Positions 3,221 through 62,386 of a DNA stretch of 64,000 bases are shown here, piece after piece; within the stretch, counting starts at the first letter, position 1; each line of letters starts with the position of its first letter. A program made the position numbers and the translations under genes. The DNA lies in assembly GCA_036925085.1 (NCBI GenBank), contig JAUPFP010000049.1, positions 921,144 through 985,143 on the forward strand, in the 5' to 3' direction. A model generated the notes under the pieces. It did no database searches. It was not told the origin of the DNA and worked only from the letters and a program-made list of their open reading frames with translations. Source of the stretch: Brachycybe producta. Its lineage: Eukaryota; Arthropoda; Diplopoda; Playtdesmida; Andrognathidae.

Positions 3221-6097
3221 GAAAATGTCACGGACTCATTTTTCATTTTTTAATTTAATCTTTTCAATTTGTCAGTAAAGAATTTCTTTTTAAATAAAAA
3301 TGTTTGTTTGTTGTGTGTTTATTTTTAATAAGAATACATTCCATTTATCTCTCTGTAGAATGTCTGTTGTTATTGTGAATTTCTGATTACGAAACGAAAA
3401 TTCGTTTCTGTCAAAATGTATATCAGATATATTCACTAGATGGCACCACGTTCTGCAATAGCTTGAATTCAATTCACAGTAACTTCAAATTCAGCGCTCT
3501 GATTGGTAGATTTGATTTCAGCGCGAAATACAAATTTAAGAAGAAGAATATTTTTGCTTCCTGGAGGCAATAAGAAGCTATGAAAGTATACAATATGACC
3601 AAAAATCTTTTTTTTTGCTTTGCTATAAATATTGAAATATACTTTTAATAAATATATATAATTTCTAGATAATAAAGCCCAGGGGCCCAATTATTTAAAG
3701 GTGACCTTCTGGGTTCAAATATCTGAATTTTTTTTTTTAAAAAATTCAATTTATTTTTTAAACTAATATTTAATCATTCAATAATCAATTATTAATAATG
3801 GTAATCTTCATAAAAATAAGGAAAAAAAATTGACAATATTTTAAAATATCCTACAAACAATATTTATAAAAGTATTTCAGTGTGGCCTCATGGGTTATTG
3901 TTTTACTGACCTCAGGGTGAACCTTGGTTTTGTGATAGTTGATGACAGTGACTATTGTTTGAAACACTGCTCTGAAGAGGCACCCTTTCTTAATGTGTTG
4001 GTCCGATACAAAATGCATCTTTTAACATAGACATTTCCTATGGTCACGACTGTCTAGTCGCCCCTCAAAGCTACCCGTAAGCCGTGCAGTGAAGTAAAAA
4101 CGTATAAGGATCCATCAAAAAGTTCCCTTTCAATAGTACAAAATCTGTACAAATTGTTCTAAACTATTGCATTTTTGTTATAAGTGCGAAATATTAAGAA
4201 AGTATTAATACAATTCTATTGCAATATTTTTTTTACCTTTTAAACTTTTAGGTTGCTGAAAGACGACAGGTCCTCGTTATAAATAAAATTAGACGGAATA
4301 ACGAAGCTCGTGAGATATATATTTTTCATTGCAATGTCATTTCTTTCAAAATGCTACTCTCGCTTTTTTTTCCCTTGCAGTAGAAAAAAAAAAAGAGTTG
4401 CGAGTTGGCTTTTCTACAAATAAATCGATTTTGGCAAACCTCAATCCCTTCCTTGTCTCTCTACGCAACATACATACACGTACTGTGTATGTACAGAATA
4501 TGTACAGTACAGCAAAACAAAAATAAATTATATTTCTTATTGCCCTTTTTTAATCTTAAAACATCAATTATTTTTTAAATATATATAATTGTTATTTAAT
4601 TATTATTATCCATGATTTATATTAAATTGAAAAAAGAACAACCCCAGGCTACAAAAAAAATGTGAGTAGAGCTCTCTAAAACGAAGATGAAATAAAATCT
4701 TGAAGCCGGGTCAATAAATTAGCTCCTCTTCAGCTGCTATGCCAGAGTGCAAAAATGAATTACATTTCCTATTTCTTTATGTAGCCAACTATCTTCATAT
4801 CAACCAATCACAATTGTCATCTTGTTTACCCTCTTATTTAGGCGGAGTTTAGCAAAGAATGGCTCGCGGGCTACTTGCGGCTCATATTACATAAAATATC
4901 AATATATTTTACCTATGTCTAACATAAAAAGCTGTAATCAACAACAAAATTCATTTTATTTATTACGAAAATCGATCGCATTTGTATTTTTTGTTTTCAT
5001 TCGATAAATTTTTCGTATTGTTATTATTGATCAGCAAATTTTAATATGTGTGCGTGTGGCCCTTTAAATAAACAGTCATTTTCACCTCTTGTATCAAAGG
5101 CTATGTTTTGAAGAAAAAAAAAATAACTCTCGTTTGCTACAAATAGCCTCAAATACACCCAGGTCTGGCGAGAAACTCAAAGACGTAATGTTAACCTATG
5201 AATGAGTGGATCATGCTTGGATGTGTTTGAGGCTATTTTCTATTAATAGGCTGTATTTCTAAACAAAGCCATTGCGAAAACAAATGAATATAAAGAACCC
5301 TACACACATATGCAAATAAATTATCCATAAGTTTAAAAAAAATCGGATGACGTCATATAACTGCATTATGCATAAAATATTGCGTTAAGCCATCTGATTT
5401 TTCTGTAAGCTCTTGTCGATACCGATGCAGAAAAGATTTTCATAGAGTAGAGATGACATATAGGGTTAAATAATAATAATAAAGATCGTAAATGAAGCTG
5501 TTTCAAAAAAAAAAAAAATGACGTCATAGACACGTCAAGCTCTCTGATTTGTTCTTTTTTGGAATCCATTGTACGCCCCCTTGACGCATTCATTCTAGTA
5601 TCTAGATGAGGAAGAATTAGGGGAGAAAAAAAGAGATGTGGGAACCAGAATGATGTAGCTTAGGATTTTTTTAGCCTGGATTTTTTTTTCCTTCTCTCTA
5701 CTCTTTCGTTTTCATCCGATTATCAATTATTATTAGCAATGTAAAAATGTCAAAAATTAAGATAAGTGTATTTTTTTAATTTTTCTTAAGTGTTATACAT
5801 TTTTTTTAACTAAGCATTTCAAAGATTACACAGTTTAAATAATCATAATAGGAAGAGAGAAAAAAAAAAATCCCGACAGGTTGTGCAAACAATGAAAGTG
5901 GAAATGCTCAATTTTTCATAATGGAATTATTTTTTTTAAACAAAAGGCTTTATTTAAAAATGATGATTTCTCATATGGTAATATAATAATTTATTTTAAT
6001 TTTAAATTGTAAGAAAATGTAGTATTTTTTTTATAGATTTACACAATTTTTTTTTCACGACATAATTTAATGAGTGGTCATTGGTCAAGTGTATTGT
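3221..6097. other. Intergenic region between divergent unkempt and FBXL16
   Basis: About 2.9 kb of AT-rich sequence with many homopolymer A/T runs. It separates two divergently transcribed genes, so it should include the FBXL16 promoter and any 5' untranslated exon. I see no conserved coding exon, RNA gene or clear terminal inverted repeats. Confidence 0.5.
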
Positions 6098-9000
6098 ATG
6101 TGTGAGGGTGGTGGTGCGTGTGTTCTGTGTTATGATTATTTGGCTATGGGCACCATAAGCCAAAGTATGAGTGCAACGGTTGATAAAGCTGCACCGTGTT
6201 GTACAATGGGAAGTAATGCAGCCAAAGATAAACTGGTATCAGCTGTTCCTTTTGGTATTGGAACTGGACACTTTCATTTTGGTGGCCTAAAAGAGAACAA
6301 TAGTAGTAATAATAGAGGTGGTGGGGGTGGTGCTGGTGGCGGAGGTGTTGGAGGTGGAGGAGACACCTACACGGGTTCAACAATGCAACAAAATGCAAAT
6401 ATTACTAATGGAGATGATTTAAGTGTTAGATCGACCAAAAATAATCCATCATTGTCTCCTGTAAGAAGAAATGTCAATTCGGGAGGTGACCTCGAGGTCA
6501 ATGGATACAATCAAGATAGAGGTTGTCTACCACTGGGACTACAATCACCTCGTGTTGGACAGAAACGTCCAACTCCGCCCAAACCACCTCCAAAACCTGC
6601 TGGACTTGCACGTTTGGCAAATCTACGTTGTGCCAGGATGGGTTCAGTGGGAGGTGGAGGAGGAGGAGGTGGTGGGACAACATTAGGGTCGGAAATGTTA
6701 AAGGATGTCCGATTTCTTAGCCGTTTTTTCTGCTATTTTGCAGCTACTGAAAGGCGCCTTTTAGCTCAGGTATGCCATATTTATTTCATTCATCGATTCA
6801 TTTCTATTTTTTTTTAAAAAAAATGTCATTCATTCATTCACAATCATTTTCTCATTTATTCGACTTAAAAGTAAAAACATCACTAGAATTGTAAATTAAA
6901 ATGTTTTGTAAACACATTTTAAGAAAAAATAAAATGTATATTAGAAAAAATAAATGAATAATGCAAAACCAAGATCCCACATACAGAAAACGCCAACTAA
7001 AAATGGAATTTATGTATTGATAGTTTTAAAATTAGATAAATTATGTTTTTTTTGTTGTTGTTTTCTGCGTGTAGGATCTTGGCCTAATACCTTGTTAAAT
7101 GAAGTTACACATGAGTTAAATGAATTCAAATTAAATGTGTTTAGGTGAATTATACGGAATCCAGTTAAGGACATGAACACCCAAATAAAAATTGATTTTA
7201 ATTATTAATATTTTAAATTGAAATACTAAATCAATATTTTGTCAATAGTTTATATATTTTATTTAAGTATTGACTCAATATTTTCAGATTATTAACTGAA
7301 TAAATTGAATTCGACATATTGTTTGTTTGTCCTTCACGGGGCTCTGTAGAACACGTTTATTATTTAAATACATTTAAATTATCAGGTGTGTATTAGGTAT
7401 AAGAGTATCTTCATACTGATCACGTTTATAGAAATATAAATTTAATAAAAAGCAGAATGTTTTTTTGTTTATAAATTTTGCGTTTTATGTAAATAGAAAA
7501 TAAATAAAAAAAAAATGCAAAATATGCAAAAAAATTGTTTGTTTTATGCAAATAAAAATATTTATTATATATTAAATGCACAATTAAAACGATTTGGTTT
7601 AAAAAAAAACCTTTGTAAAAATTTTCAAGCCAATAAATAACATTTTAAAAAGAAATATGTGAAATAATGCGATTTTACGTAGTTTTTTTTAAAAGAAAAT
7701 TATGCAATTTTATTTAGGTTTAAACTGATTATTATTGCACATAATTATGAAACTCTTATGGTATTATTAGTGTATTCAAACAGTGTATTCAAAAGAGGTT
7801 AGAACTGTGATTATTAGGGCTCGGATTTTGATGCAATATCAACCGGACTGTTTCTCAATATGTGGCCCAAGTGCCAATTGTGAAGTGACAATCTCTTTTA
7901 GATAATAAAAAAAAAATAATTGTTCTTTCAAATTAAAAACAATGGTTAGAGGCTAGAACTCTAGTTGACAACTGATAGTAACCAGACATCTATCTAGCTT
8001 CTCTACCAGGCTTTTTTTTTATTAGAAATAACATACTTACAGTTGCTCTAATGATAATTACTTCACAGTTGGCTCATGGGCCACAAATTGAGAAACATTC
8101 CGGTTGATATTGCATCAAAATCCGAGCCCTAGTAATCAGATTATGCCCAACTTTCTACTAACGGTCATTCAAACTTTAAACAAAATCTCGTTCTAATCGT
8201 TGATGTGTTGAAATTCTTTCAAGGTTTGTTCTTCGTGGCGCAATGTTCTCTACCAAGCTCGTTTTTGGAGAGGTGTCCTTCCAGTGGTGAATTTCCGCCA
8301 AATGCGTGTCATGAATGGAGATCCATTGACCACAGTTGACCAGAGACTTCGATTCTACGGTAGTCTTCAACAGCGTGGTTTTGATTCTGTCTGTCTTTGC
8401 GGTGGTAACGATGACGATATTCGTGACTTTGTTACCAATTGTCCATCTGCGGCCAAACACATTCATCATGTTGTTCTTCGTTGTTCGTCTATCACTGACA
8501 AAGGATTGGAAATATTATTAGATGGAATGCAAAGTGTTTACCAATTGGAATTGGTTAGTTGCAATGAAGTGAGCGAAGCTGGACTTTGGTCGTCTCTCAA
8601 TCCTCGGATAGTCTCGCTCACTATTCACGATTGTATCAATGTGGCCGATGAAAGTCTCGGTGCTGTGTCACAACTTTTGCCTTCACTCTACGAGTTTAAT
8701 TTGCAGGTAAAAAGCAAACAAGGGCCCTACTCGGGAGTTTTCATTTTTGCATCTGATTTCACATATTACGATTACACGCGTGCATACAAAGATCACGCTG
8801 ACACAAACACACACTGTCACACACATGTACATTGTACATGTATACATGTATTAACAAATAACACAGACACATGCAAAACAATAATACATACCATAGGCGT
8901 AAATTGGTATTGAAAAGTGGGGTGGCAAGAGTTGAGAGACCAAGAACAAAAAAAAAACCTAGTATTGCATTGCATTTTCGGAAGGATTGAACTGTTAGGG

Positions 9001-27780: not shown

Positions 27781-30700
27781 ATGATTTCGCATCTGGGTAT
27801 CTTCGTGGTTTATTGTTTTGTACTTTCGTGTCAAAGAATGTCATGCGTTAACAATGTTAACGAAGTTGGATCTTTTTGTTTGAAGTATAATCGTCTAGAA
27901 ATGAAAAAGTTTGTCGATAGTGACTGGCCTTTAGCTTTGGGCATTGTACTGCAAAGTATCGTTGATTTGGTCAGCTTTTGGAAAATTAAAAGTATTGTCG
28001 TTTTCACAACAGTTACAAATGGTATAATACAGCAAGACATGGTCTTGTTATTCATTATTATTATATACTATTTCAGTTATACAAGAATCGATCAATTACT
28101 TTTAACTTAATTTTCTTGTTCGACTTATAAACTTTTATTAAATTTCATATACTGAAAACTTCTGGCGTTCAAATTAATTGGCCAATCGGGGAAATGCTCG
28201 ATTGCCCAGTCCGCCTCTTAGCATTATATGGTTTGGACATGTCACTGAACTTCTTTTTTTCTCTTGCTAAAAACTATAATGGTGACATTTCTTGATTTTT
28301 GTCTTTCATCTCAGGTAACGCAGAAATGTATCTTCTTCACAGAATTTCTAACGCCATTTTAATGCCATTAGATGTCGATTCATTGCTGATTCTCAAATTT
28401 GCAGACATACAAACTTTCATAATTCTCGACAACGAGAATGTAACTTTTGACTTTTTTCAACAGGTTACAAATATTTTTTTTTTTAGTTTTCTATTTGGGT
28501 GGCAGGTGATTTTTTTTCTTCTATTTATTTGGAAAAATTTTATAGAATTAAAAAAGAAACTAAAGCATTTCAGCTAAAGGTTATGAAAGTTTTTCGAGAA
28601 TTTCATTTAAAGTTTTAACTGAAATGCATGAGAAAAAAAAAACAGTTGACACACTAGTTGTTTCAATGTTGGGCCAACGTCGACTACCAACGCCAACCAA
28701 AATGAAATTGGAAGGAAAAAGATCACTGCCTACCTGAAATCTAGATTTTAAGAGCCTTTTCACACGAACCACTTTTGAGTGGTTGAGCCCCTAATTGTCA
28801 AAACTATAACTATAAAAAAGTAACCTTATTTGTTACATCTCAAAAATCAGGCTTTCAAACTGGGTCTGTTTGAAAAGAACAATTCTTGGATAATTTTTTC
28901 AAAGAATTTCCTGCAACCCGGACGTCTACCTTCGAGTTCTTTCGAAGCTCAGATTACTTTACTTCAGTACAACGAAACTGCAAAAGTATACATAATTAGG
29001 GCCTATTATTATCGGCACATTTGACCACTGATCTCCTCATTTTTCTTTTATTTAGCTGTTGAGAGGTGCGAATTTGTTTCATTTGAGTGAAGTCGACATT
29101 TACGATGTTTTTCAATCGAAGCAAAACAGTGGAGAACTGTATCATGTCCAGTTTGCAACTTGGTCTCGTGAACGTGGCTTCTTATCAAAGGAAAAATTCT
29201 CGACAGACGATGAAGTCGCACTTCAAAACAAAGTTATTCATTTCTACTCGTTCAATGTCAGATTTCTGATTATTATTTCATTTGTTTCATTCTTTTGCTG
29301 TTCTAATTATATATTTATTTTATATTATTGCAGCATTTACCATATAATTCGGTAACTTTCAAGAACGGTGGATCCGTTACTGGAGGTTACATAAAAGATG
29401 TTTATGACATCTTCTTTGATAGAAGAATGTTTCGGTATGCTGCAGGGGCGGAAGCAATAATATTTTCGATGGGGGAGTGGGATGCTGGTGACACAGAGGC
29501 TAAATTTGAAAATGATTAAATAGGGCAGAACTACTAGCACTAATACCAACTAATACCACTAATATGTTAAGATACCTTTGTCGATTTCTGTTTCAGGCCA
29601 AAGTATCTCATTCAAGCCATAAACAACTTTGGCTTAATTGTAAACGGTAGTTATACCGGTGCGATTGGCAGTTTAATAAGAAGGGTACGTAACGTACCGT
29701 ATGCGTATGTGTATGCAGAGTGGCAATTAAACAAAAACGATGTCTGTTTTCAATTATTCAAAAGGATGAACAGGCAACGTTCGTTATATAACATTTTTCA
29801 AACAATGATTGAAAATTATTTTGTTTGAAAAAAAGGAACCAAAATTTCATTAGATTTGAATAAACTTTGTTTAGTTTTTTCCCCGTCATCTTTTCAAAAC
29901 AGATATCATTTTTTTTTTCTTCTTCAATTTGTATATATAAGTAGTTAATTATACAAAATAAACAACTAATGGCAATGTTTATTAAATTTTAATCAGAATG
30001 TGGACATATCCATGACTGTTATGATCATTACATCATCAAGGTATAGTGTGATTAGATTCACTAATCACGGTACCATTTATCACTCCCTTGGTATCTGCAT
30101 TGCAACACCGAAACCGAGTTTTTCGACCAATTCATATATTATGCCTTTTGAGAAGCACGTCTGGAGAGTTTTAGCCATTACTCTTGTCATTTCGATTGCT
30201 CTCCTGTGTGTAACTGCTGTTTTTTCTCCGTCTTCTGCTCAGCAAGGCAGCGTTAAACCTCGATACAAGACTTCGTATTGGTGTACTGTATACTGGATCT
30301 TCAGTGGAACATGCTTTATTGATGGTATAAATTACAAATGTTATTTGACAGGTTAGTAGTACGAGGTGCAGCTGCAGATTCAAATGTCTTTTGTCTTTAG
30401 TTCTTGCAGAAACGCCAAGTATCGCTGTGAAGATAATTACGAGAACACTAATGCTGACCACGATGGTCACCTTTATCTATTACACATCGTTGTTCACGTC
30501 CATTTTGGCATATCGTGGAGACGAAATTCCGATTAAAACGTTGGACGACGTGTACAAGAGCGAAGAATACGGGGCGCTCTCTTTGCCGTACACACGCTAC
30601 TTGGATTTATTTAAAGTAATATCATGTAATTAATTATTTTTTCTCTAAGAAATAACTTAGGTTTTCGTTGTTTTTGCGATGTGTAGTTAGCGCACGACGA

Positions 30701-31239
30701 TGTTTATGCCGATATTTGGAATAGCAAGTTGTCTAAAATTAAGAATGATGATCTTCCAACAGATGTCGTCGAAGGTGTCAAAATGATTAGAAGTGTAAAG
30801 GCTGCACTTCTTTACGATATGTTTTCGATCGCTTACGAAGCTGGCGGAGATTGCAGTATAACCATAAGCAACGAGAAATACAACAGAGAATACACTCATG
30901 CTGCAACTCGTTTCGATTTTCCCTACACGATGATGATTTCCTTTCAGTAAGATCGAAATGTATTTTAGTTGCATTGACAGTCAATTGTTTGTTTGCTTCT
31001 TTTTTTTATATAGATTTCTTCTTATGAGGGAAAAGGGTATTTTGGATAGAATCAAGAGAAAGAATATGCCGAATTACAGAGAACTTTGCCAAAAATTACC
31101 AAATAAGATGATTTCTTTAAGTTTTACTCAAGTTATTGTGTTGTTTTTTATTATAATCGCAGGAGTTGCGATATCAATTTTCGCTCTCATGGTAGAAATC
31201 TTAATTTGGAAGTTGAAAAATCATTTCGGCAGATCTTAA
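27781..31239 (+). CDS. Ionotropic receptor (variant ionotropic glutamate receptor family)
   Basis: Nine exons: 27781-28021, 28315-28463, 29056-29256, 29334-29434, 29597-29684, 29997-30324, 30410-30615, 30687-30946, 31014-31239 (TAA). All phases agree: 1800 nt, 599 residues. Begins with a signal peptide (MISHLGIFVVYCFVLSC). Ligand-binding half S1 starts near residue 198 (VTGGYIKDVYDIFF, NGSYTGAIGSLIRR, ISMTVMIITSSRYSVIRFT); M1 about 315-336 (VWRVLAITLVISIALLCVTA); pore loop about 353-370 (SYWCTVYWIFSGTCF); M3 about 382-405; S2 with RYLDLFK, ALLYDMFSIAYEA and LLMREKGILDRI; M4 about 562-586 (VIVLFFIIIAGVAISIFALM). These receptors are cation channels used in protostome chemosensation. The M3 SYTANLAAF motif of glutamate receptors is replaced by YYTSLFTSILAY. 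No amino-terminal domain. The exon 3 donor GTCAGA is the least certain junction. Confidence 0.9.
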
Positions 31240-31982
31240 ACTTGTGTAACGTCAATACTAGACAGAGGAAGCACTATTTTCACCACTAGCATTTACAGTG
31301 TATCCACCCTGTCGCTTGCTAAATCCAAATCCCCCCCCAAAAAAATGCGATGTCAAATTAAATATGGCCAAGATTTGAATACATCTGCCTAATCGTAAGA
31401 AGAAGCGTAGGATTGTGTCACCCAGTCTAATGGAAAATGACACATACATCAAGTTTTTATTAAGTCCTCTGGCATCGCATGCTTCTTCTAAGGATTACAC
31501 AAATATAAATAAGTCAAATAATTGTTACATTTCCCTAATACACAAAGAAAAAAGTTATTGTAAATTTAGTTTCATTCTTTTTTTAAGAGAAATACTTTAA
31601 TAAAAATTATCAGTTAGTCATTTTAGTAGTCATTTGTATAAATAAATATATAGAAAATGTATTTAGGTAGCGTATATTTCACTTGAAAGCGTTTTAGAAA
31701 CTAGAAGAAGAAGATATACTTTAAAAATAATTTTTTATGACAGTTCGAAACTGAAAAAAAGATTTAATTTTTGGAAATTATCAGGAGTTTTTTTTTATTT
31801 TTGATCCAACTTGAAGAGACAAACGATTTTCTAGTTTCTAAACCGCTTTAATTTTTTTATACTGTTGCTTCTAAAACGTATAGATTAAAAATCCATAGTT
31901 CTATTTCATACTTCTCATTTACATATTTTGCATTTGCTTCTTATGAAACATCATAATTCTTCATTTGATGTAATACATATTT
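31240..31982. other. Convergent spacer between ionotropic receptor and caspase
   Basis: 3' ends of two converging genes. About 31684-31850 holds a diverged foldback-family copy (GTTTTAGAAACTAGAAG ... CTAGTTTCTAAACCGCTTT). No other gene. Confidence 0.55.
31599..31604 (+). terminator. Candidate polyadenylation signal of the ionotropic receptor
   Basis: AATAAA 360 bases past the stop codon and the first good match on this strand. Confidence 0.5.
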
Positions 31983-34737
31983 TTAACCTAATTCAAAATT
32001 AAACGAAACTGTCTGATTATTAGCAATTGATTCAGAAATAGATGCTGAAATGCGAAATTTTTGTGTTCTGTCAGAATTATTAATAAATGAAGTTTTTCGT
32101 TTCTGATGGTTAATTACAGCATCATGATGAGAATGATTATCCGCAGTAATGCATTTCTTTAGAAACAATTTCTTGGTCAATGTGGACAGTACAGTAATGG
32201 TTTGCTTCTTTTCGTTGAGCTCGCAATTTTGTGTGTTGTAAGATTCAAAGTTTCGAGCAACTGTATATTTAACCAGGGTTAACATGCTCTCAAAATCCAT
32301 TTGCCCAAATTCTGTCATTTTATCACACAATGTTTTCAAAAACCACGATCCCGTTTTACATCGAAAGGATACATAGCCTGGAAATAAATATTGTGAATTA
32401 TTAACATTGTGAAAATTAATTGATTGTTCAATAGACAGTATGTGAGAGACCATTGCTACAATTTATTAGCAAAGTTTAAGAAGTGGCGCAGCTAAATTGT
32501 TTAGAATTTAATATTTGAGAAACTATAAATTAGACCTAGACAACTCGGTTGAGGGCGAGGGTCATATTATCCTCCAAAAAATCCAACTTATCTGAAGCAG
32601 TATACCTTAACGTAAGCACTATTCTAAACTATAATACGTCAGTGTATATGCAAGACTCTGCCACTCTCCCTGTACTAATCCACTCTTTTTCTTGTTGAGG
32701 GCGCCTTTATGAGAGTTTGCACAAGGGCGCCTCATACCCACGCAGTGGTGCTGAGCCTCATACATGGAGACCATAGTGTAAACATGACGTCTACTTATGC
32801 ATGGTCTTTAAATTATCACCTAAACACTAAAGGCCACCATATTCTAATGTTCTCCAGAAAGCAAGTACATATGTGGACTAGACACTTGATTTTTGGAGAA
32901 TGGTAGGCGGATCGAGCGAGCATAGCTAATATGATGTTCCCAGACGCTATATTTTTGTTTTCTTTAAGGATAATATTGTATAGCTTTTTTAATATCCGAA
33001 TGCGTTCAATGCACATATTACCATATGTTGTACTGCGAACAAGTAAAAGCTCATTGTAGCGAGGAATAACTTCCACATTATCGAAGTTCAGACAAGGTGC
33101 AGGTAGATGACATGTTGAATCAGTTACAGTTACTTTGTCCTCAGCTTCGGTACCAAGACATGCCTTGAGGATTTTAGGTTGAAATAAAGAAGAAAAAAAA
33201 AAAATGCAAAACGTTAAAAGAAATTAAAATATGAAGTTCTTATGTTAAATGCATAGAAATAATAAAATAGAAAATGTAATTCTTGGGTTTACAGAGTGGA
33301 TGTAAACTTTTTGGGTTCAAAAACAATTTTAAGAAATTAATATAATGTTTGTAAATTTAAACGAATTAAAATATTTGAAAACCCCTATACTGAAGGACAG
33401 TAACGAAAATATAGTTCATGTTATCTGATTATTCATGTTAACCGTTTCGTGTTAAACGGTTTCCATTCGTACGACTCCGTAGTTATGAAAATATATTTAA
33501 CACATTCACATACTATTCTAGTTTTTAATGAACTTTAAATTTTCCTCTGAAAACAAACATGAAAAAAATGTACTGAAAATATCACCTGAAGTAGGAATAA
33601 TTTTGGTTTTCCGTGCCATTTAGACTCGTCCACTAAGAATGGTTCGTACAAAGCTGCAGTTGGATACCAACCGTCATGAGCTAACAATTGTCCTCCAGTA
33701 CCATGAGTGTGTAAAACACAAACAAAGCAAGTGTCTTTTCCATAGTCTTTTTTCGACACTAAAATGATTTTTTCATTATATTAAAATTCACATTAAATTA
33801 AAAATAAATAATACAACCCTTTTCAATTCTTGATTTAATTTCGGAAGATGTTAAGTTATCTGAACTATACACTTCGAAATTTCTTTCCTTCCAAACTTTT
33901 TTCATGTTTCTTTTGTCTTCTTCCCAATAGTGCCGATTGTACTTCGAATTTCTGTATTCTCCATGATTAAAAATCAGAACAACTCCAGGACTTTTTTCAT
34001 TGATGTTGTAGTTTAATTCATTATTTCCTATTGAACCTAAAAAAGACAATTTTATATAAAGGAGAACTATTTAAAAGAATAGTTTGATTATATTTTTTAA
34101 TATAACATCGTATTTTAATAAATAATACAATGATTCATAATATAATAAATTATATTAATTACATTAATTCTTAACTACGAGTGTTTATTAAAAGTTTAAA
34201 AGAAAAACCATTTCTGTGTTTTGTAATCAATATTAAATTTAAACACTAGTTGAGTAACTGAATAAAGTGAGTGTTGATATCCTAAAAAATGAATTTTTTA
34301 TGGCCGTTTTAGACATTACCAGACAATTGTTTTCGATTTTTGTTATCATAAAAAGTTTATTTTTTAAATATATTAACGTCAAAATACTCTTAAGTAATTT
34401 ATTTATTAATCTAGTTTTTAAAACTCTTTTAAGGTTGCTTCTAAAAACAACAGACTAAGGGATTATTAATCATATTTTTTTTTTATAAATCTATTATTAT
34501 GTTTTCATTGAAACTTTCAGAATTGTATTTCTTTTACCAGGTTGTGCTGTTTTGGAAGAAACTGCTTTAGGTTCAGGCTCAACAAAAACCTTAGCATCCA
34601 CCATATCACATACTACATTATTAATAACAATGGAAACAATAATTAATAATAGTGTATTATAACTTATAATTAATAATAACAGGTATTAATAAAATTGAAG
34701 AAAAAACATTTAACTAACCCTTTTTGTTGTTATCCAT
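31983..34737 (-). CDS. Caspase (cysteine protease), short prodomain
   Basis: Six exons: 34737-34719, 34612-34538, 34036-33818, 33758-33586, 33163-33022, 32377-31983 (TAA); 1023 nt, 340 residues. Caspases cleave after Asp and act in apoptosis or signalling. The N-terminal extension before the p20 fold is only about 40 residues with no CARD or DED, as in executioner caspases. Seen: VVLIFNHGEYRN; catalytic His123 in LHTHGTGG; KPKLFLLQ followed by catalytic Cys164 in ACLGTE (the usual QACRG/QACQG becomes QACLG); Asp171 and Asp177 (VTVTDS) as candidate inter-subunit cleavage sites; p10 with GYVSFRCKTGSWF (S1-pocket Ser213, Arg215) and STLTKKLFL. A C-terminal tail of about 55 residues follows the p10 core. 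Paralogue of the gene at 37285, facing away from it. Confidence 0.93.
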
Positions 34738-37284
34738 TTTGAAGTTAACTTCAAAAATGATTACATTTACACCTCACAGCCTACAGAAATAGCAACAAAA
34801 TGAAACTAAAGTGTCCATTTACTTATCACAGTTTTTATAGTGACTTTTGTGACTAATGCAATATCAAAAGTTAAATTGCATTAACATAATTGCTGTCGTT
34901 GGTGATAATGAAGTTTTCAGTATCACTTTCCTTATTTTCATAACTTTCAGATGTTCTGCTCGATACAATGTATTGATACAGAAAGGGATAACTTTGATAA
35001 GTGTAAATTAAAAGCAACAGTGATTGTCTGATTGATAACGCATAATATAAACAAACTCAATTCACTTTCGATAGTTAGTTGCAATTTTGGAATGACTTCT
35101 TTTGAAAGTTTATTTAGAATTACGCCAAAAATAAAGCTAAACAACTAAAAATGCTAAACTGTACAATAAAAGTACACTTAAGTGCTAAAGTCTTACATAA
35201 ATTACATAAATTTTATATTCAACTTGCGAATATACATGTAATTAATTATACACAAATATATAAATAAAAATACAGTGAGAACTATTTCAGTCACATTAAC
35301 CAATATTTTCGAGTTAACGGTTTCGTCTTAAACGAATTAAAATATATGAAAAAACCGTATACTGAGTTACAAGACAGAAAATATATTTCGTGCTATCAGA
35401 TTTTTTTTCCTGTTAAACAGTTTCCACGGTACCTAATAGATTTTATATTTGTTTTATCAACCTAGAAAAATTGCAATATGATAAGAAAATTTATTTTTTC
35501 ATTTTACTTATTCATATCATTCGAATAGATTAGACGTAATATTGACACAAAATGAGTAATAAAGTAAAATTGAAAGCAAAACATGATTTAAAACACTCGA
35601 TAATTAAAACAGAAAAGAAACAAACTTATTTTCTTATCATTTAATGTTTATAAAAAAGCACACAAAAAATGAAATGAATAAAATATATTATACATGGATG
35701 CCCGGTACCTGAATTTGAAAGATAACAATGGGGAAAAACAATGGTTATTTAAATATTCAGAGATTCTGATTACTTCCTAAAAACTTAAAATTCTGTTATT
35801 TTAAAACTACTATAAAAAGGGTTTTTATAAAAGATAAATGTCAAAACTTTTATGCAAATAAAAATTCAACGAAATGCATTTCTTTTCTTTAATTGTGCAC
35901 TTCATACAAATAAAAAAAAAATAAACCAAAAAAATTGCAAAATATGCTACATATTGGTTTTGATTTATATATAAATAAAAAATTCACATTAGATAGCAAA
36001 AGAACAATTAATTTTAAAATCGCTCAAATAATTAATAGCTACAGTCATCTGAAACAATAACAGAAAACGCAGAATTCTATTAATAAATGCTATTGTAAAA
36101 ATTCTTTATGGTTTTTTTTTATTACAAAACCGTGTTTTTAAATGAGTAAAATTATGCAACTTTAAAAAAAATTATGCAATTTGTGCGTTTTATACATATT
36201 TTGTGTTAAACTGACATGGAATTATAGTGTAAACCTACCAAAGGAGATTGGAACTGTCATTAGGAAGTGTAAAGTTGAGCATTACTCAATTGGTCAATAC
36301 TAAATATAAATAATTTACCCTAAGTAGGCCTACTATTTTTTTGCTTTTGTCCATCATTTTTGAACCAAATTTTATTTTGAATCGCTCTGTGGCTAATACC
36401 TTGTACACACATGAGTTAAATGAATTCAAATTAAATGTGTTTAGGTGAATTATACGGAATCCAGTTAAGGACATGAACCAAATAAAAATTGACTTTATTA
36501 TTAATATTTTAAATTGAAATACTAATTCAATATTTTGTCAATAGTTTATATATTATATTTAAGTATTAACTCAATATTTTAGATTATTAACTGAATAAAT
36601 TGAATTCGACATATTGTTTGTTTGTCTTTCACAGGGCTCTGTAGAATACATTTATTATTTAAATGCATTTAAATTATCAGGTGTGTACTAGGTATTAGAA
36701 TGGACAGACAAATGGATGGGTGGGAATATGTTAGCTTGTTGGTAGACAAGGACAGGGTGATGGATAAATGGTACACAATACAACTTGGGCGCTCGCCTAA
36801 GGCGCAGGAGTACAAATTTTAAGCCTAAGCTAGTGCCTTAAGAAACCCTTGAGCCGGCGGCACATTAAATTTGATTATAGAGGGGTTCTTGGACCTATTC
36901 ATACATGTATAATAAAAATATTAAAACAATTAAAAGTATATTATTCTAAAATATACAGCTGCTGTGAATAAAGAAACTTGTTTTGATTATGAAACAGGAC
37001 TTCAACAGAAACCAACATATTTAATATGATATCATTGATATTATAATCGGGTACCTTTAACCTTTATTCATATATCCAGATATGAATATACAGTATGTAC
37101 ATGTAGATATAATAATCATAAGATTATCTAATAGGATATTTCACTTTCAGATTAGATATCGTATAAAATATAAATTTTCAAGTAGATTGTTGCTTTTTGG
37201 CTTTTATTTATACCTGGTGCATGTTCACAGCTAGATTAAATACTAAAATTAGAATAACTGTAAAAAAATAATTTAAAGTACATA
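34738..37284. other. Shared upstream region of the divergent caspase pair
   Basis: 2.5 kb between the two start codons; promoters of both must lie here. It contains a dispersed repeat at 36391-36700 (copy of 7082-7408). A diverged AT-rich repeat at about 35860-36210 (ATGCAA...TTTGTGCGTTTTAT) is also seen near 7500-7700 and 14590-14880. At 35290-35440 is a fragment of the TTAACACGAA repeat. No exon found. Confidence 0.5.
36391..36700. repeat. Dispersed repeat, copy 2
   Basis: Same sequence and orientation as 7082-7408, with an 11-base difference near the start (TAAATGAAGTT absent here). Ends near GGTGTGTACTAGGTATTAGA. Confidence 0.8.
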
Positions 37285-40200
37285 ATGGCAAGTGGATCAA
37301 TTCAGACAGGTATGTAAATAATTTTCATAAATAATAATAAATAATTTTGTTAAGAAAATGTTTTTTTCTAGATTTTGGAGATCCTTTTAGATCACCAACA
37401 AAGAAAGAAAGAAGCGAAGTTGATGGAGCCTGTTTTTCAATGTCAACTAAACGAGAAAGTCTACTGTCAAGTAAAAAAAATTTCTAAGACTCTTCTTATT
37501 CTGAGTTTTCAATATAATTTAAAGAAAAAAATTGAAAGCGTTTTAGAAAGAAGAAAAACTCAGTGACGTAAAGTTATTTTCATGTTGATAATTTTGCAAA
37601 TAAACTTTTTATAACTTTATAAAAATGACAAAATGCTAAGTTTATGAACTTTAGCTGACTTTTTTTGTTTTGCATTTTGGGCCAGAAGAAAGAAAAAAAA
37701 CTTTAGAATTAAAAATTGACATAAAAATTTTTTTTATTTGTTAAAAATATTAATATCTTAAGCCTCTTAAGTGATTCCTTTATACTTCTAGTTTTTAAAA
37801 CACTTTTAATTTTGTCAAATGAAATCGATGTCGCTTCTGAAGTTCTATTCAATATTTTGTATTGCTTGCTCATAAAACATCATAAATATTTAATAAATAA
37901 ATAAACATGTAGAGTATAAATAAACAAAATAAATAAAATTTACATTATTTACTTATTTTTCTTATGCTAGGTGTAAAAGACGAAGTGTATCTGATGCCTT
38001 TGGAACGTGTTCGTAAAGAATACGTGTATAACACGGACAAAGGACAAAGAGGATTAGTTTACATCTTGAACCATTCTAAATTCAATACAAGAGCGAAAAA
38101 GGACGACAACTCGAACATTATGGCTAAAATAAGAAAGACCTGGGAAGAACTCGAGTTTAATGTGATCGAACACAATGACTTCTCTAAAACACAAATAGCA
38201 TCATTAATGAAAAACGGTTCATTTCTTTTATCAAAATTTATAATTTGTCATTAATATTAAGTCCACTGATGATCACGAAATACTAAAAATGAAAGTTCTA
38301 CAAGTGTATAACTACTTGTTAACTACTTTTGCTTAAACTTAAATTATGTATAATTTAATTAGAATTTAGATTTATGGACTAAAAAGTTTAATTTTAAATG
38401 AAAATGCAATTTTAATTGAACGTGACTAACACTACCGTACCATTAGACTATGCTCATACTTAGAAAGCAATTTAACTAGTAGTTTAAAAACATGTAGTTT
38501 AACTATTTTCCCATCTCTGATTAACCTTCCATTTGCTTCACGTACTAATCGACATATATTTACAGTGAGTTCTGCTAGCTACAATTATGCATGCTTCATA
38601 TGCATCGTGAAAACGCAAGGAAAAGAAGACAACCTTAAGGCTAACGACGGCTGGTACAATGCCGAGAACTTGTGGAAGCCTTTTTTAGATAAAGACAATT
38701 GTCAATGGCACGGAAAACCCAAAATATTTATCTTAGAGGTAAGCAAAAAAAAAAAAAAGGTAATTCCCGGTTTCTGTTTTTATTTTTCCTGACTCTCTTC
38801 TCATCTTTAAAAAGGCCCAACGAGGTACAAAAGTAGACAAGGGAATTAAACTTGCACAATTCCAAAGTGAAGGGCCAATTGATGTTCCTGACTCGATAAA
38901 TTATTATGCGGACGAACGAAGAGAAATGAAGCTTTACGGAATCCCACTTCATGCTGATTTCTTATTTGTTCACAGTACATTCAATGGTATTGTTACTTTA
39001 TATACAGTATATATTTAACTATAGTACTTCCAAATTTATAAGTATATTAGTGGGGTAACCCATCATAAATGACGAGAGCGAAATTCACAGGCAATTTTGC
39101 CCAGCATTAGAATTTCTTTTCCGCTGCCCTTTTATGACGTCAGACCAAGTAACAAACCAATTAGAAATTGATGACGTTCATAAAAGGGCGGAGCAAAAGA
39201 AATTCTAATGCTGGGCACAATTGCCTGTGAGAAACTGTAGTTTAATTTTGCTACTATTATCTCCTCCCCTTTCTTATATTTGAAAAAGGTGTGCTTTCTC
39301 TGGTGTGCGCATGCGCGTCGTTTGTTCCTTTTTTACTCCTTTCATTTCAATTTCAGTCACCCCTCAACGTTTCTCTCTCTCCCCCTCTACACTTTCCAAC
39401 CTTACCCCTCTCCAATTTAATATCATGGGGTTCTTGAATGGGGAGTGTGCAACATACAGTTGACCTGGAGAAAAAAATGCGGTTCATTTATTCATTTAAA
39501 TTTATATAAATTCCGATGTGCTTCAAGGTTTTTGTTCTTGTTTGTACAGCATTAATCACACACACAGACCTGGCTTAATATATATATAATTATATATATA
39601 ATTATAAGTAGAACAGTAGATACTCAAAGTTTCCAAAAAAACTTTAAGAATAAAAACTGAAAGTGTTTTAGAAAGGAGAAAGGGTATCTTTAAATTAATG
39701 TTATAAAAAAGAAATAAATGTTTGATGCCACGTTTGCTCAATGTAATTCGTTTACTAGTCTAGTTTCTAAAACACTTTTAACTTCTTAAAGTTACTTTTA
39801 AAATATGGCGTATCCATATTTCAATTTAGCTGCTATAAAAATTCAATTGCATTTTTTTAGCAGCTATAAAAATTCAATTTAAGTTCATTTTTCCTATAGA
39901 ATTGTTTTCTGTAAATAATAAGGCTGTACCGATGTCACTTTTTTTTACCAAGCCAATACCGAAACGATCACACACAAAAAAAATTGGCATGCCGATCGAT
40001 TTAACCGAGCCGATCATGTGGATTTTCACTACCGATTTTGGCTGCTTGCGTCGGTCAAGAGAGAAGCGGTTCGCACAAGAACGTCTGGAAAAAGACTTAA
40101 ATTATAATTTTCGAGTTTACAAAGCAATGGCAAGACAACAATTTCCTTTTAAAGATGAATTAGTGATAAAGTTGGTAATAAATTGATTGACCCTCCACCG

Positions 40201-40984
40201 CTGAAGTTTTATCGGGGAGCAGCTGACCTAATTGTTGAGTTCGGAAATCGGTTAACATTTGTTCGCCGATCCGATTTTTGCCAATTAATAGTAAATTGGC
40301 AAAAATCGGCTTGGTACAGCCTTAGTAAATAATAAGTGTACTGCAATTTATGTAACTTCCCTGACAGGCTCACAGAAAAAAATCTGCATACAAAATTCTA
40401 CATTTTTATGGAGATTTCTAAAACTTTTCTGCAGTTTTCTATGAATTTTTCTATGGATGCAAGTTTCGTCAAGTTCATGTAATTTCTTCTGTGTTTTCAG
40501 TATATTGCTGACGTTTAACCATTTTATTACGATCCTTCTCGCTGACCAAAAACTAATACTATGTAACCAGAAACTTGTAAAACTAATTCTCTTATAATCC
40601 ACAGGTCACGTTACGTACGAAGATGAGAACGGAGTTCCAATCTTTCTTAACGAATTATGTGATGTACTTAAAAAACATGCAAAAGACATTGACTTCGAAA
40701 GTATGCTAACCATCGTCAAATACAAGTTATCTCGCTACAAGCTGGACGACACGAGTGAACCGTACAAACAAATGCCCTGCACCTTCTCAACTCTTACGAA
40801 AATATTATATTTTAGAGCACTGGATAACTTTGTCTTGACCGATGCTAAAATGGATATGATAGATTCTAAACAAGAAAATAACGAAAACGAACAACAACTG
40901 CACGAGCATCCCACATTTACAATTGAAGGGACATTAGCTGGTTTCGATGCTAGAAAACTTAATATAAACGTGAGTGTCTCATAA
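37285..40984 (+). CDS. Pseudocaspase (caspase paralogue with catalytic dyad replaced)
   Basis: Six exons: 37285-37309, 37372-37470, 37971-38216, 38566-38738, 38815-38986, 40605-40984 (TAA); 1095 nt, 364 residues. Intron phases (1,1,1,0,1) match the caspase at 34737 exactly, and exon 4 is 173 nt in both. Shared core: LVYILNHSKF, ACFICIV, NDGWYN, WHGKPKIFILE, DFESMLTIVKY, FSTLTKILYF. But the His position reads VKTQGKED (Gln141), the Cys position reads AQRGTK (Gln183), and the p10 S1-pocket segment reads GHVTYEDENG (Ser to Thr242, Arg to Glu244). So protease activity is not expected, though fold and dimer strand look kept. Open frames and intact splice sites argue against a pseudogene. A GTGAGT donor at 40970 near the end leaves open a further 3' exon. 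No prodomain motif. Confidence 0.9.
37527..37810. mobile_element. Foldback element copy in pseudocaspase intron 2
   Basis: Left arm GCGTTTTAGAAAGAAG...TTATTTTCATGTTGATAAT; right arm ...TTAAGTGATTCCTTTATACT then CTAGTTTTTAAAACACTTTT. The left arm overlaps the sequence just after the exon 2 donor. A half copy lies at 34340-34445 in intron 2 of the active caspase, and another at 39655-39790 in intron 5 here. Confidence 0.6.
39085..39230. mobile_element. 146-bp foldback MITE, pseudocaspase intron 5
   Basis: Arms of about 60 bp: TCACAGGCAATTTTGCCCAG...GACGTCAG against TGATGACGTTCATAAAAGGG...TTGCCTGTGA, with a short AT-rich loop. Each arm carries a TGACGT half-site. Confidence 0.85.
39919..40324. 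mobile_element. hAT-like element with perfect 8-bp target duplication
   Basis: Flanked by GTAAATAA at 39911-39918 and 40325-40332. Ends TAAGGCTGTACC and GGTACAGCCTTA; inner inverted matches (CCAAGCC...ATACCG / CGGCTTGG). 406 bp in pseudocaspase intron 5. A 65-residue open stretch in it (around LTEPIMWIFTTDFG) resembles no transposase domain I know. Confidence 0.88.
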
Positions 40985-42280
40985 ATTCATAATGTGAACA
41001 GAGTTGAGAAAAAAAGGTACTTTGTGAGCTTTTATTTAACATATATTGGGAAAAAAAACACACATGTCACACAACATAAACAAGAGATAAGTAACTTAAT
41101 CAAAGAGGTGTAATTTACTAATTAGTTTCCTTTCAACGGTATGATGACATCACAGACAGTGGTAACAGCCGAAGAATTGTCGTTTGAAACTTTCTATATA
41201 AAAGTAACACAAGACAAAATCCTAAAACGTCAAAACAATTTCTACACAAAAAAAATGAAATAACCAGACGATGCCCACTCTCGGACATCTTTTGTTTCTT
41301 GTCCCACTTCCCAAATGAGCACTTTTTTTTTAAAAAAAAGGCCTACATTATAATCTTTGTTGATTTTTTTCAGAAATTATTAAGATCTATTTTATATTAT
41401 AAGTAAACAGTTTTGTATTTACAGTAAAAACCGTTTAACACAAATATTCGGATAACAATAAAAATATTTTCGGTCCAGACAGTATTTTGTTTTCCACGTA
41501 ATATATTGTAATTTGTTTAAAATGTGACGAATAATTCTAAAAAAATCGGTTAACACGAACACATTTCCCCGTCCTATAAAATAAAAATCTATGTAAAATC
41601 CCCTTTTAAACACAAAAAAAATTAAGACCCGTTTTCCAAATTCACTTTGAGATTTTGTCTTTTGAAAAGCCCTTTTCAAACACGAAAAAACCTTTAAATC
41701 AGTGGCCTTGGATTCCCAAATTTGCTTCCTTTCTGGACAATACTGAGAAATAAAAAAATAATGATTTTCTAAAAAGAAATGTAAGCTGCGCCAAATTGTA
41801 AGTTAATTAATAAAAAAATATTCACTTTCTTTTGTTTATAGTGTTCTATTAAATTTATGCTGTCGTCTTTTGATTATCATCATTATATCAGATACATGAT
41901 GTAATACCATAATAAATACACCATAAAATGTGTTTTGGAAATTATTCTTTAATTATGTTAAACTCTTTATTATTATTTTATAATCTTTGATTAAATTATT
42001 TTTTTTTTCTATTCACAAAATAATTATATAATTTCGGTTTTATTCCTTCCATTTTGTGTTAAAAGGTTTCCACTGCATATTTCCACTAAACCTATCGACT
42101 CGTGTAAGAACACATGCTGAATTAAACAACTAAACGTGGTCGATAAAACAAAAACAAAAAAAGATAGTAAAAGAGAACGAGGAAACAAGAAACAATCGTT
42201 TCGGTTAGTAGTAAGACCGATGAGCTTAAATTCGTAACAACGAAATTGGAAGTGTGTGCGCAGGAAGTTATTCGTCGTAA
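40985..42280. other. Convergent spacer between pseudocaspase and CSN1
   Basis: 3' regions of two converging genes. Mostly the pogo/mariner-like element at 41422-42075. No conserved exon was recognised between the pseudocaspase stop and 41422. Confidence 0.5.
41422..42075. mobile_element. Pogo/Tigger-like non-autonomous element
   Basis: Left end CAGTAAAAACCGTTTAACAC preceded by TA; right end GTGTTAAAAGGTTTCCACTG (inverse CAGTGGAAACC...TTTTAACAC). Related termini at about 20335-20405 (POLR3H intron), 33355-33475 (caspase intron 4) and 35300-35440. The superfamily is inferred from the CAGTRRAAACC ends and the left TA; the right flank is CATA, so the TA duplication is not clean. Confidence 0.6.
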
Positions 42281-45880
<3,600 letters not shown>

Positions 45881-59879: not shown

Positions 59880-62386
59880 TTATATTGTTTTGCCTACTTG
59901 AGTTGCTATAATATTGAAGATGAATTTCAACAAGCGTTTAAGTTTACTTGAACCATCGTCAGTGACACCGAGCACAGCGAGGATTTTGGTAGCGAATGTG
60001 TCAAGGGCGCTGTTGATCTCGTCTCCTTCCTCCGTTCCTGGAGCCAGTGTCACATTTAGCTGGTGGAGTCCAACGTCGAGATATTCGCCGAAATTCACGA
60101 AACCCTCTTTGAAAAGATATTCTAGTACAGCTTGTAAGTGTGTAGCCGACGCATCCGTTTCTTCTGTTGTTGCTTCTTCGGTCTCCGTTGTCGTTGCCTT
60201 AGCTGGTTCTTTAGTTGTTGCTTCTTCGGTCTTCGTTGTCGTTGTTTTAGCTGGTTCTGTAGTTGTCGTAGGAGCTGGGGTTGTTGGCGTCGTAGTCGGA
60301 ACTGGAGTTGTTGTAGTTGGGACTGGCGTTGTTGTAGTCGGGACTGGCGTTGTTGTAGTCGGTGCAGCAGTCGTCGTTTTTGTCGTTGTAGTTATTTTTG
60401 TTGTTGTTGTCGGCTTCGACGTAGTACGTACCATTTTTCCAGGTTTGAAATTGGCAGAAATAGCCTATTGTAAACGATATGAAGGTTGTCGATGCTACAT
60501 TTTAGGCCAACAATCAAAAGTTTTCTGATCGACACTCAAGTTTCAGTCTGAGCGCCTCTAATCATACACTTCATACCTTTAGGATGCGAAAAGGAGACCA
60601 TTCTTTGCTTTCCTAATGAAAAGAGTACGGTTAGAGGTGCTCAGTGGCAAATCAGCTTTACACTTGTCGTACAATTTTACTCTTTCGGTGTTACAAAGTT
60701 AATACTGGACAGAAAAAACCGTTCGTAAGTTTGTAACACTGAATTCAGTAATGTCTATAGTTTCAAAAAAAAAATGAAACAATTATCTTGGTTTTTAAAA
60801 TATATTAGGGCCGGAGGTGTAATCTAAAAATGTTGTATGTCGGTATACAAGTGTATAAAATCAGGAGGTGGTAGTGTATAATGGTGCAGTGGTGACCTGG
60901 GGAAAATGGCCCATGCAGTAAACAATTACTTCATTGTTCTCTTTCCTGAACTTTTCAGTTCTTCTTGTGGTTAGATTTTTCATTATTCATTTTGCCAACA
61001 AAAGAAAGTCATTTTTTTTTTTCGTAAGAAATATTTATTTGGATTCATTTTTTTAGGGATGGGCCATTCGAATCCTGGAATCCCGCGAATCTTGAAAAAT
61101 ATTCGAGATTCGAAAACTCGAATCTTCGCGCTTTTTTCGTCTTTCGAATCTTTCGAATCTTAATATAAAAAAAAATATTAAAAACCTTAGTAAAATTAGT
61201 TTTAACAGAAGCGTTCACTAACAAAAAAAAAATCGGCGATTGTTGCAATAGATTACCTTGTGGCGACCCTGAGTGCCACACACACTTTTTTATTATTAAT
61301 AATTTAATATAATTTCATTTATTTGTAATTTCTTAATGAATAATAGAGAATTCTTATATGAGGGATTCGAGAACCTCTTTTGATTCGGATTCGAAAAAAT
61401 TTAGGATTCGTCCCAACTATTAATTTTTTTGGACCTCATATACTTGAGCCACACCAAACTGACAAAACAACAACAAAGCAGAAACTCTGTGTTTCAAGAT
61501 AAATTGGCAATAAATCTAAAACATTTCTGCTACTTTTTTGTTTCGTTTTGTTTTGTTTGTAATTTTACAAAAAAACAATGTGTTTTGTCTTCAGCATACT
61601 GCTGACAGTTGTTTCAAGTTTCTTTTGTTTTCAAAATCGGCTTTTTTCGAGCGTTTTTGTTTTGTTTTCGTCCCGAACTCGTGTTGCACTTTTGTCAACT
61701 TGATGTGGATCGAACTTTAGACTTTTTACGTGCATTGCATTTATTATGAATGCATTGCACGTGAAAAAACAATCAACAACGCCCTCAAAACACCACTAAT
61801 TAGGGTTTCTTGTTTGTTAACTCATTCTAACTTTAACGGACCTACTCCAATTCCATTGATGTTTTCTATAGTCCGTTTTTTTTCTGATTTCTTGAACTAG
61901 AGCTAAGTCGACTAACAAGTTCCATTTTAATTAAAATTCATCAACTGTGATAGGCCTATAGCACTTTCTGCAGAGTTGAGCTTGATTGTTCAGCACAGGG
62001 CTGGCAACTTATTGTGATTACAACTTTTTGTTGTTGTTAACAATGCTAGCAGTTGAATATCAATCAATTATTTCATTAAGATTCTAATGAACACAATTCA
62101 TTTTCCACAATTTTCTTCCATATTTTTTTTCAGAATCACAATTTTCAAAAAAAAATTCCGAAATTTTCACAAAAATGTTTATAAAGTTTCTTTAAAAAAA
62201 AAAGAAGTAAAATTTGCAGTTTTATTTTTTCAGAATTTTAATTAGACCTTAGAAAGGGACACTTGCCCTAAAGAGACATTTGCCCTAAAACGATTTTCTT
62301 GGCCTAAAATCATTTGCCCTAAAGAGACATAAAACCTTGTGAGGTCATAGTGGCATAAACATGATACTGGTACCTAATGGGACTGG

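Follow-up and report, generated by a model that had tools for sequence, protein, structure and literature searches.

We describe here a pair of caspase genes lying head to head in the millipede Brachycybe producta, one of which very probably encodes a retained, catalytically dead caspase homologue. The pair is found in a stretch of 64,000 nucleotides (nt) of contig JAUPFP010000049.1 (positions 921,144 to 985,143 of the forward strand), which was analysed as a whole and is called the window below; positions without a contig name refer to it. The gene on the minus strand, MINUS (31983-34737, 340 amino acids), keeps the catalytic dyad of His and Cys. The gene on the plus strand, PLUS (37285-40984, 364 amino acids), combines a predicted caspase domain and a dead site with an intact reading frame, and is in this sense a pseudo-caspase.

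Both genes consist of six exons, with 1095 nt of coding sequence in PLUS and 1023 nt in MINUS, stop codons included, and neither contains an in-frame stop inside. GT..AG borders are present at all ten introns of the two genes. The first-pass annotation of this DNA had placed two caspase paralogues back to back with starts 2.5 kb apart and with five intron phases in common, which agrees with our models: 2547 base pairs (bp) separate the two ATGs, and the phases are 1,1,1,0,1 in either gene. The GC content of PLUS amounts to 0.378 in coding sequence versus 0.297 in introns. The features are:

37285..37309, plus strand: PLUS exon 1 with the ATG, placed by GT donor and frame
37372..37470, plus strand: PLUS exon 2, short prodomain with SEVD-G, placed by splice sites and frame
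37971..38216, plus strand: PLUS exon 3, in which the caspase core begins, with Lys at the place of Arg64 in the alignment used
38566..38738, plus strand: PLUS exon 4, 173 nt, KTQG with Gln141 for the catalytic His; Glu181 for Gln161
38815..38986, plus strand: PLUS exon 5, Gln183 (CAA) for the catalytic Cys; intersubunit linker with IDVPD-S
40605..40984, plus strand: PLUS exon 6, Thr242, Tyr243 and Glu244 for Ser-Trp-Arg; last strand KQMPCTFSTLTKILYF; stop
34719..34737, minus strand: exon 1 of MINUS, the dyad-keeping caspase, with the ATG
34538..34612, minus strand: MINUS exon 2, short prodomain with DMVD-AKVF
33818..34036, minus strand: MINUS exon 3, in which the caspase core begins, with Arg at the place of Arg64
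33586..33758, minus strand: MINUS exon 4, 173 nt, HTHG with His123
33022..33163, minus strand: MINUS exon 5, Cys164 in QACLG; linker with VTVTD-S
31983..32377, minus strand: MINUS exon 6, Ser213-Phe-Arg215, small subunit, stop
34738..37284, no strand: intergenic stretch between both ATGs, 2547 bp, 26% GC

Concerning the identity of the two proteins, both match the Pfam family Peptidase_C14 (PF00656) far above its cut-off of 21.4, PLUS with an E value of 2.8e-31 (109.4 bits, profile positions 1-233) and MINUS with 4.5e-36 (125.1 bits, 2-233). With this match and its 364 open codons, the earlier claim that PLUS keeps an open frame and the caspase core is borne out. The match begins at residue 68 in PLUS and at residue 49 in MINUS, leaving short prodomains as in effector caspases. 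Peptidase_C14 is the sole Pfam family in both proteins at E values up to 0.01, and a prodomain family (CARD, DED) was not found at this threshold. Among solved structures, MINUS is closest to caspase-3 chains (an insect caspase-1 ranks fourth) and PLUS to caspase-7 chains. Identity to Drosophila Drice and Spodoptera caspase-1 is 26-34% for PLUS and MINUS and 47-48% for a Drice-like caspase on another contig of the assembly, C24.

For the active site, with residues numbered as in caspase-3, both proteins were aligned with six effector caspases whose catalytic residues are retained: the C24 caspase of this genome, Drice, Spodoptera caspase-1, zebrafish caspase-3a, human caspase-3 and human caspase-7. 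All but C24 were taken from solved structures. MINUS retains Arg64, His121, Gly122, Gln161, Cys163, Ser205, Arg207 and Trp214, with Phe at Trp206; His123, Cys164, Ser213 and Arg215 are its own residue numbers. PLUS retains Gly122 alone of these nine site residues and carries Lys, Gln, Glu, Gln, Thr, Tyr, Glu and Ile at Arg64, His121, Gln161, Cys163, Ser205, Trp206, Arg207 and Trp214, respectively, among them Gln141, Gln183, Thr242 and Glu244 in its own numbering. The four residues that the first-pass annotation had named in each gene are thus all correct in the alignment. To its four substitutions in PLUS we add Glu for Gln161, Ile for Trp214 and Lys for Arg64, the last of which depends on the gap, as an Arg stands just before it and another placement could fill the column. 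On this alignment PLUS accordingly lacks, and MINUS possesses, the residues expected of an active caspase (the dyad plus Arg64, Gln161 and Arg207). MINUS is itself diverged, with the motif QACLG, Phe for Trp206 and Ile-Thr for Pro263-Cys264.

We searched positions 30000-43000 for overlooked exons by six-frame tblastn with nine caspases, putting aside matches that overlap the known exons of PLUS and MINUS. Nothing better than E 0.43 was obtained in this range, and no exon that restores His or Cys to PLUS was found; the annotation had named such a better exon model as evidence against its claim. The stretch 34738..37284 likewise gave no caspase exon in this search. A match at 40331-40381 on the minus strand (E 0.70, ACQG) has a stop codon in front and looks like a chance hit.

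A second copy of the region is present on contig C61 of the assembly: 31674-53442 matches C61 917897-939669 at 99.5%, and 54943-62518 matches C61 at 99.3%. Over 31701-41760 the C61 copy differs by two single bases and one 2-base gap, and the sole coding difference is a silent one in MINUS (Asn188, AAC/AAT). The PLUS exons, each taken with 10 flanking bases, are identical in both copies, which makes it unlikely that wrong base calls account for the PLUS active site. The C61 copy is probably the other haplotype; alternatively, it may be a recent segmental duplication. The match ends at 31674, 309 bases past the end of the MINUS gene, and the 31 kb of C61 before 917897 hold one short repeat only, among matches longer than 300 bases; an insertion, a haplotype break or a misjoin may account for this end. 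Intron 5 of PLUS contains an inverted repeat at 39085-39230 (arms of 53 nt, 92% complementary, 40 nt apart) resembling a small mobile element, and 39048-39451 has an 85% relative at C61:897864-898302.

Whether PLUS is kept as a protein or is in decay can be judged from its codons and from the distribution of its changes. PLUS and MINUS differ at silent sites to saturation (pS, the proportion of synonymous differences, 0.77; pN, the nonsynonymous one, 0.47; 325 aligned codons, poorly aligned tails included). Due to this saturation, and to the single coding difference from the C61 copy, there is no usable ratio of nonsynonymous to synonymous rates (dN/dS). In a simulation, the coding sequence of MINUS was left to change neutrally by substitutions without insertions or deletions; hits that replaced a base by itself were included among the events. 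Out of 400 runs per level, 27 still had an open frame at 0.05 events per site and 4 at 0.1, and none did at 0.2, 0.4 or 0.6. Moreover, the changes are not evenly distributed. At 60 positions invariant in the six effector caspases, with gaps counted as changes, PLUS is altered at 8/9 site positions, at 9/19 near ones (within six residues) and at 7/32 far ones; for MINUS these numbers are 1/9, 6/19 and 12/32, so that at the far positions more invariant residues are retained by PLUS than by MINUS. Fisher tests of site against rest give p 0.0019 for PLUS and p 0.25 for MINUS, values which are post hoc and descriptive, the nine-residue site set having been chosen, on the basis of caspase-3, after the changes had been seen.

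This choice is one of several points that weigh against PLUS being a retained protein. Another gap placement may count Arg64 as kept, reducing the altered site positions of PLUS to 7/9. One of the six references, C24, stems from the same genome and is a caspase by sequence alone. The decay simulation begins at MINUS and not at the ancestor of the pair, and part of the divergence of the two genes may be older than the loss of catalysis.

It is improbable to us that PLUS is a young pseudogene that has acquired no stop so far. The loss of its catalytic residues is what such a gene would display, but the key codons read CAA, CAA, ACG and GAA in PLUS versus CAT, TGT, TCC and CGA in MINUS and differ at 8 of 12 bases, so that the losses are not one fresh mutation, and yet 364 codons and five introns are intact. 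A frame decaying neutrally in the simulation breaks much earlier, and the changes are focused at the active site instead of being spread. Open codons, splice sites, saturated silent sites and this focus together suggest that PLUS is unlike a decaying pseudogene, and the pattern suggests selection on the PLUS protein after the loss of catalysis.

What a retained dead caspase could do is indicated by its last strand. The last strand of caspase-3, KKQIPCIVSMLTKELYF, is the small-subunit dimer strand; it reads YKQMPCTFSTLTKILYF in PLUS, KKQTITVLSTLTKKLFL in MINUS and KKQIPCVSSMLTRKLYL in the C24 caspase. PLUS keeps six of its seven invariant residues (M268 is changed) and MINUS four (P263, C264 and M268 are changed). 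With the dimer strand kept in PLUS, pairing with MINUS or with the C24 caspase is possible, in the way in which the dead c-FLIP(L) pairs with the live caspase-8. Two points speak against giving this much weight: over all 17 residues of the strand, MINUS is identical to C24 at 10 and PLUS at 9, so overall identity does not appear to favour PLUS, and the retention of the strand is seen at the level of sequence alone.

We propose that MINUS would have kept its catalytic equipment after the duplication, whereas PLUS would have lost catalysis and the Asp-binding pocket and would have stayed under selection as a caspase-shaped protein. PLUS would fold and pair via the small-subunit dimer strand with a caspase, either MINUS or the Drice-like C24 caspase, and this pairing would either help to activate the partner or use up half of the dimers. 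That PLUS works by pairing with an active caspase has, in our estimate, an even chance of being right; its folding, its pairing, its partner and the direction of its effect are inferred. To name MINUS as this partner would be guesswork, as the C24 caspase is no less a candidate. A promoter shared by the two genes, as suggested in the first-pass annotation, is without support here, the ATGs being separated by 2547 bp of 26% GC DNA. A more elaborate form of pairing, which we hold to be very doubtful, would be an obligate mixed dimer of PLUS and MINUS with one working site. Here the charge-reversed pocket of PLUS (Glu for Gln161 and for Arg207) would receive a basic ligand or a partner protein in place of an Asp peptide, and MINUS, without Pro263 and Cys264, may need PLUS for its activity.

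Selection on PLUS could also act without any pairing. PLUS could be a selected pseudo-protease which serves as decoy at another step, being cleaved in its linker instead of a true caspase, or occupying, for example, an upstream activator or an inhibitor-of-apoptosis protein (IAP). Asp-X motifs are kept at possible processing places in PLUS (SEVD-G, IDVPD-S) as in MINUS (DMVD-A, VTVTD-S), which would fit a protein that has remained a substrate; short Asp motifs, however, arise by chance. Furthermore, the N-terminus that cleavage would expose in PLUS, GACF, is unlike the IAP-binding motif, whereas AKVF of MINUS resembles it. On balance we regard such a decoy as unlikely. Somewhat less likely again is a new function outside cell death, in which PLUS would serve as a scaffold, or as a binding protein built on the caspase fold, and its charge-reversed pocket, with Glu for Gln161 and Arg207, would bind a ligand other than Asp peptides. 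Two S1 residues have indeed turned acidic, and PLUS extends for about 50 residues beyond its last caspase strand. Pocket loss by drift under relaxed constraint would look alike, though, and the C-terminal tail of MINUS is similarly long.

Concerning the origin of the pair, PLUS and MINUS are likely sisters which arose by an old inverted duplication from an effector-type caspase ancestor. In a tree of nine sequences they are joined at 97/96, and the pair is placed with C24 at 85/82 (a branch without a star). Approximately unbiased (AU) tests reject MINUS with C24 (p 0.015), PLUS with C24 (p 0.013) and PLUS with human caspase-7 (p 0.0004), for groups that were named once the tree had been seen. 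At invariant positions PLUS and MINUS share four identical changes out of nine where both are changed, while PLUS shares 1/6 and MINUS 0/7 with a caspase on contig C30. The annotation had derived the duplication from the intron phases and the identical 173-nt exon 4. As to that exon, the lengths are indeed equal, due to two offsetting one-residue gaps, but the encoded proteins are identical at only 26 of the 56 residues aligned. Nor is the anatomy proof of duplication: over the last three introns, those of the core exons, to which the comparison extends, the C24 caspase (L012) has introns at the same places and in the same phases (1,0,1), with an exon 4 of 176 nt. This part of the gene anatomy is thus older than the pair. 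The duplication itself stands as likely, whereas the argument first given for it does not.

Several observations count against the sisterhood. PLUS and MINUS each sit on a long branch, and the tree program flags their grouping as possibly false. When one sister is omitted, the other joins C24 weakly (PLUS at 79/66, MINUS at 70/46), and the AU groups were, as said, chosen after the fact. Two old, separate caspases that happen to adjoin, with long-branch attraction mimicking sisterhood, could produce this picture, and on the full alignment the identity of PLUS to MINUS, to C24 and to human caspase-7 lies at 31-32% in every case. We nevertheless consider this origin unlikely in view of the AU values of 0.013-0.015 against the alternatives, of four shared identical changes against one for PLUS and none for MINUS with C30, and of the adjacency of the two genes itself. 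Tree and adjacency taken together make an old inverted duplication the best reading.

The genome searched comprises 295 Mb in 442 contigs and gave at least 14 matches to the caspase family, C61 copies included. With the C61 copies counted once, these matches represent the pair, the C24 gene and a partial copy of it, and genes on C30, C36 (QACRT) and C8. When PLUS served as query, MINUS and C24 alone were matched besides PLUS itself. The Drice-like C24 caspase lies at 3172 kb and matches the structures 3sir at 251 bits and 1m72 at 250 bits. Its partial copy at C24:2707 kb (L013, C24:2703000-2712999, about 4038-4960, minus strand) has matches that begin inside exon 4, whereas no match there covers the first core exon and the His-bearing stretch; a further exon-4 fragment lies at C24:3166756-3166857. 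The C30 caspase (L011, C30:660000-669999, 6554-7299) has QHCRG, with His and Cys in one exon by model, and its closest solved structures are caspase-2, Drice and caspase-9. In the C8 gene (L015, C8:3051000-3060500, 3813-4571) an immunoglobulin exon (PF13927, PF13895) precedes the caspase exon, an order which we take to resemble that of the paracaspase MALT1. According to the available text of PMC5978004, it is not known what activates type 1 paracaspases upstream in arthropods and nematodes.

The Drice-like caspase points to an arthropod or a near relative. Apart from the caspases, the mitochondrial contig C442, with 15,359 bases, follows the invertebrate genetic code and carries cox1 and cox2 side by side; its gene order is unlike the one published for the centipede Strigamia (PMC4368715). 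Additional cox1-like stretches in long contigs (C1:12697416-12698753 and four places on C17) are probable nuclear copies. In the window, 59880-60464 (minus strand) holds an open frame of 194 amino acids with Thr/Pro repeats and a mucin-like look, without a Pfam match at E values up to 0.01.

The first-pass annotation had regarded a dead caspase next to its likely partner as a new regulatory module. This is too strong, as precedents exist. In the mosquito Aedes aegypti, CASPS18 reportedly enhances CASPS19, going by the title of Bryant et al. 2010. The part of PMC4840389 available to us describes CASPS18 as without a catalytic domain of its own and as a decoy considered to enhance CASPS19. As far as these sources go, the likeness is that of a dead arthropod paralogue of a dyad-keeping caspase, which is also found in PLUS and MINUS; the Aedes pair is called Decay homologues there, whereas the canonical caspase nearest to PLUS and MINUS is Drice-like. 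In vertebrates, by the portion of PMC7586951 at hand, CFLAR shares its chromosomal region with CASP8 and CASP10, and its product c-FLIP(L) pairs with caspase-8. It resembles PLUS, on that portion, as a pseudo-caspase with a changed active site in the same region as active paralogues. It differs in that c-FLIP has two death effector domains, while PLUS and MINUS show the caspase domain alone by Pfam. Coral caspase-X, in the text provided by PMC4715348, unites a live caspase domain with a dead one lacking the catalytic His and Cys, and the domains were modelled to pair through their beta-6 strands. There both domains belong to one polypeptide, as that text has it, whereas PLUS and MINUS are two genes in opposite orientation. 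The excerpted text of PMC7836458 states that caspases function as dimers, each made of two catalytic units, and lists several bivalve caspases without the conserved His and Cys; a head-to-head pair with a regulatory role is not described for these in that excerpt. Drosophila Drice and Spodoptera caspase-1 have the caspase core as in PLUS, but PLUS is without their catalytic and S1 residues. Among the titles on inactive caspases that came up, none names this head-to-head pair, which, the coverage being partial, says little.

The kind of arrangement is hence already known from mosquitoes, vertebrates and corals. A further effector-type pseudo-caspase with site-focused changes would suggest that duplicated caspases have repeatedly been turned into regulators, and PLUS and MINUS would offer a simple protein pair for testing this change from caspase to regulator.

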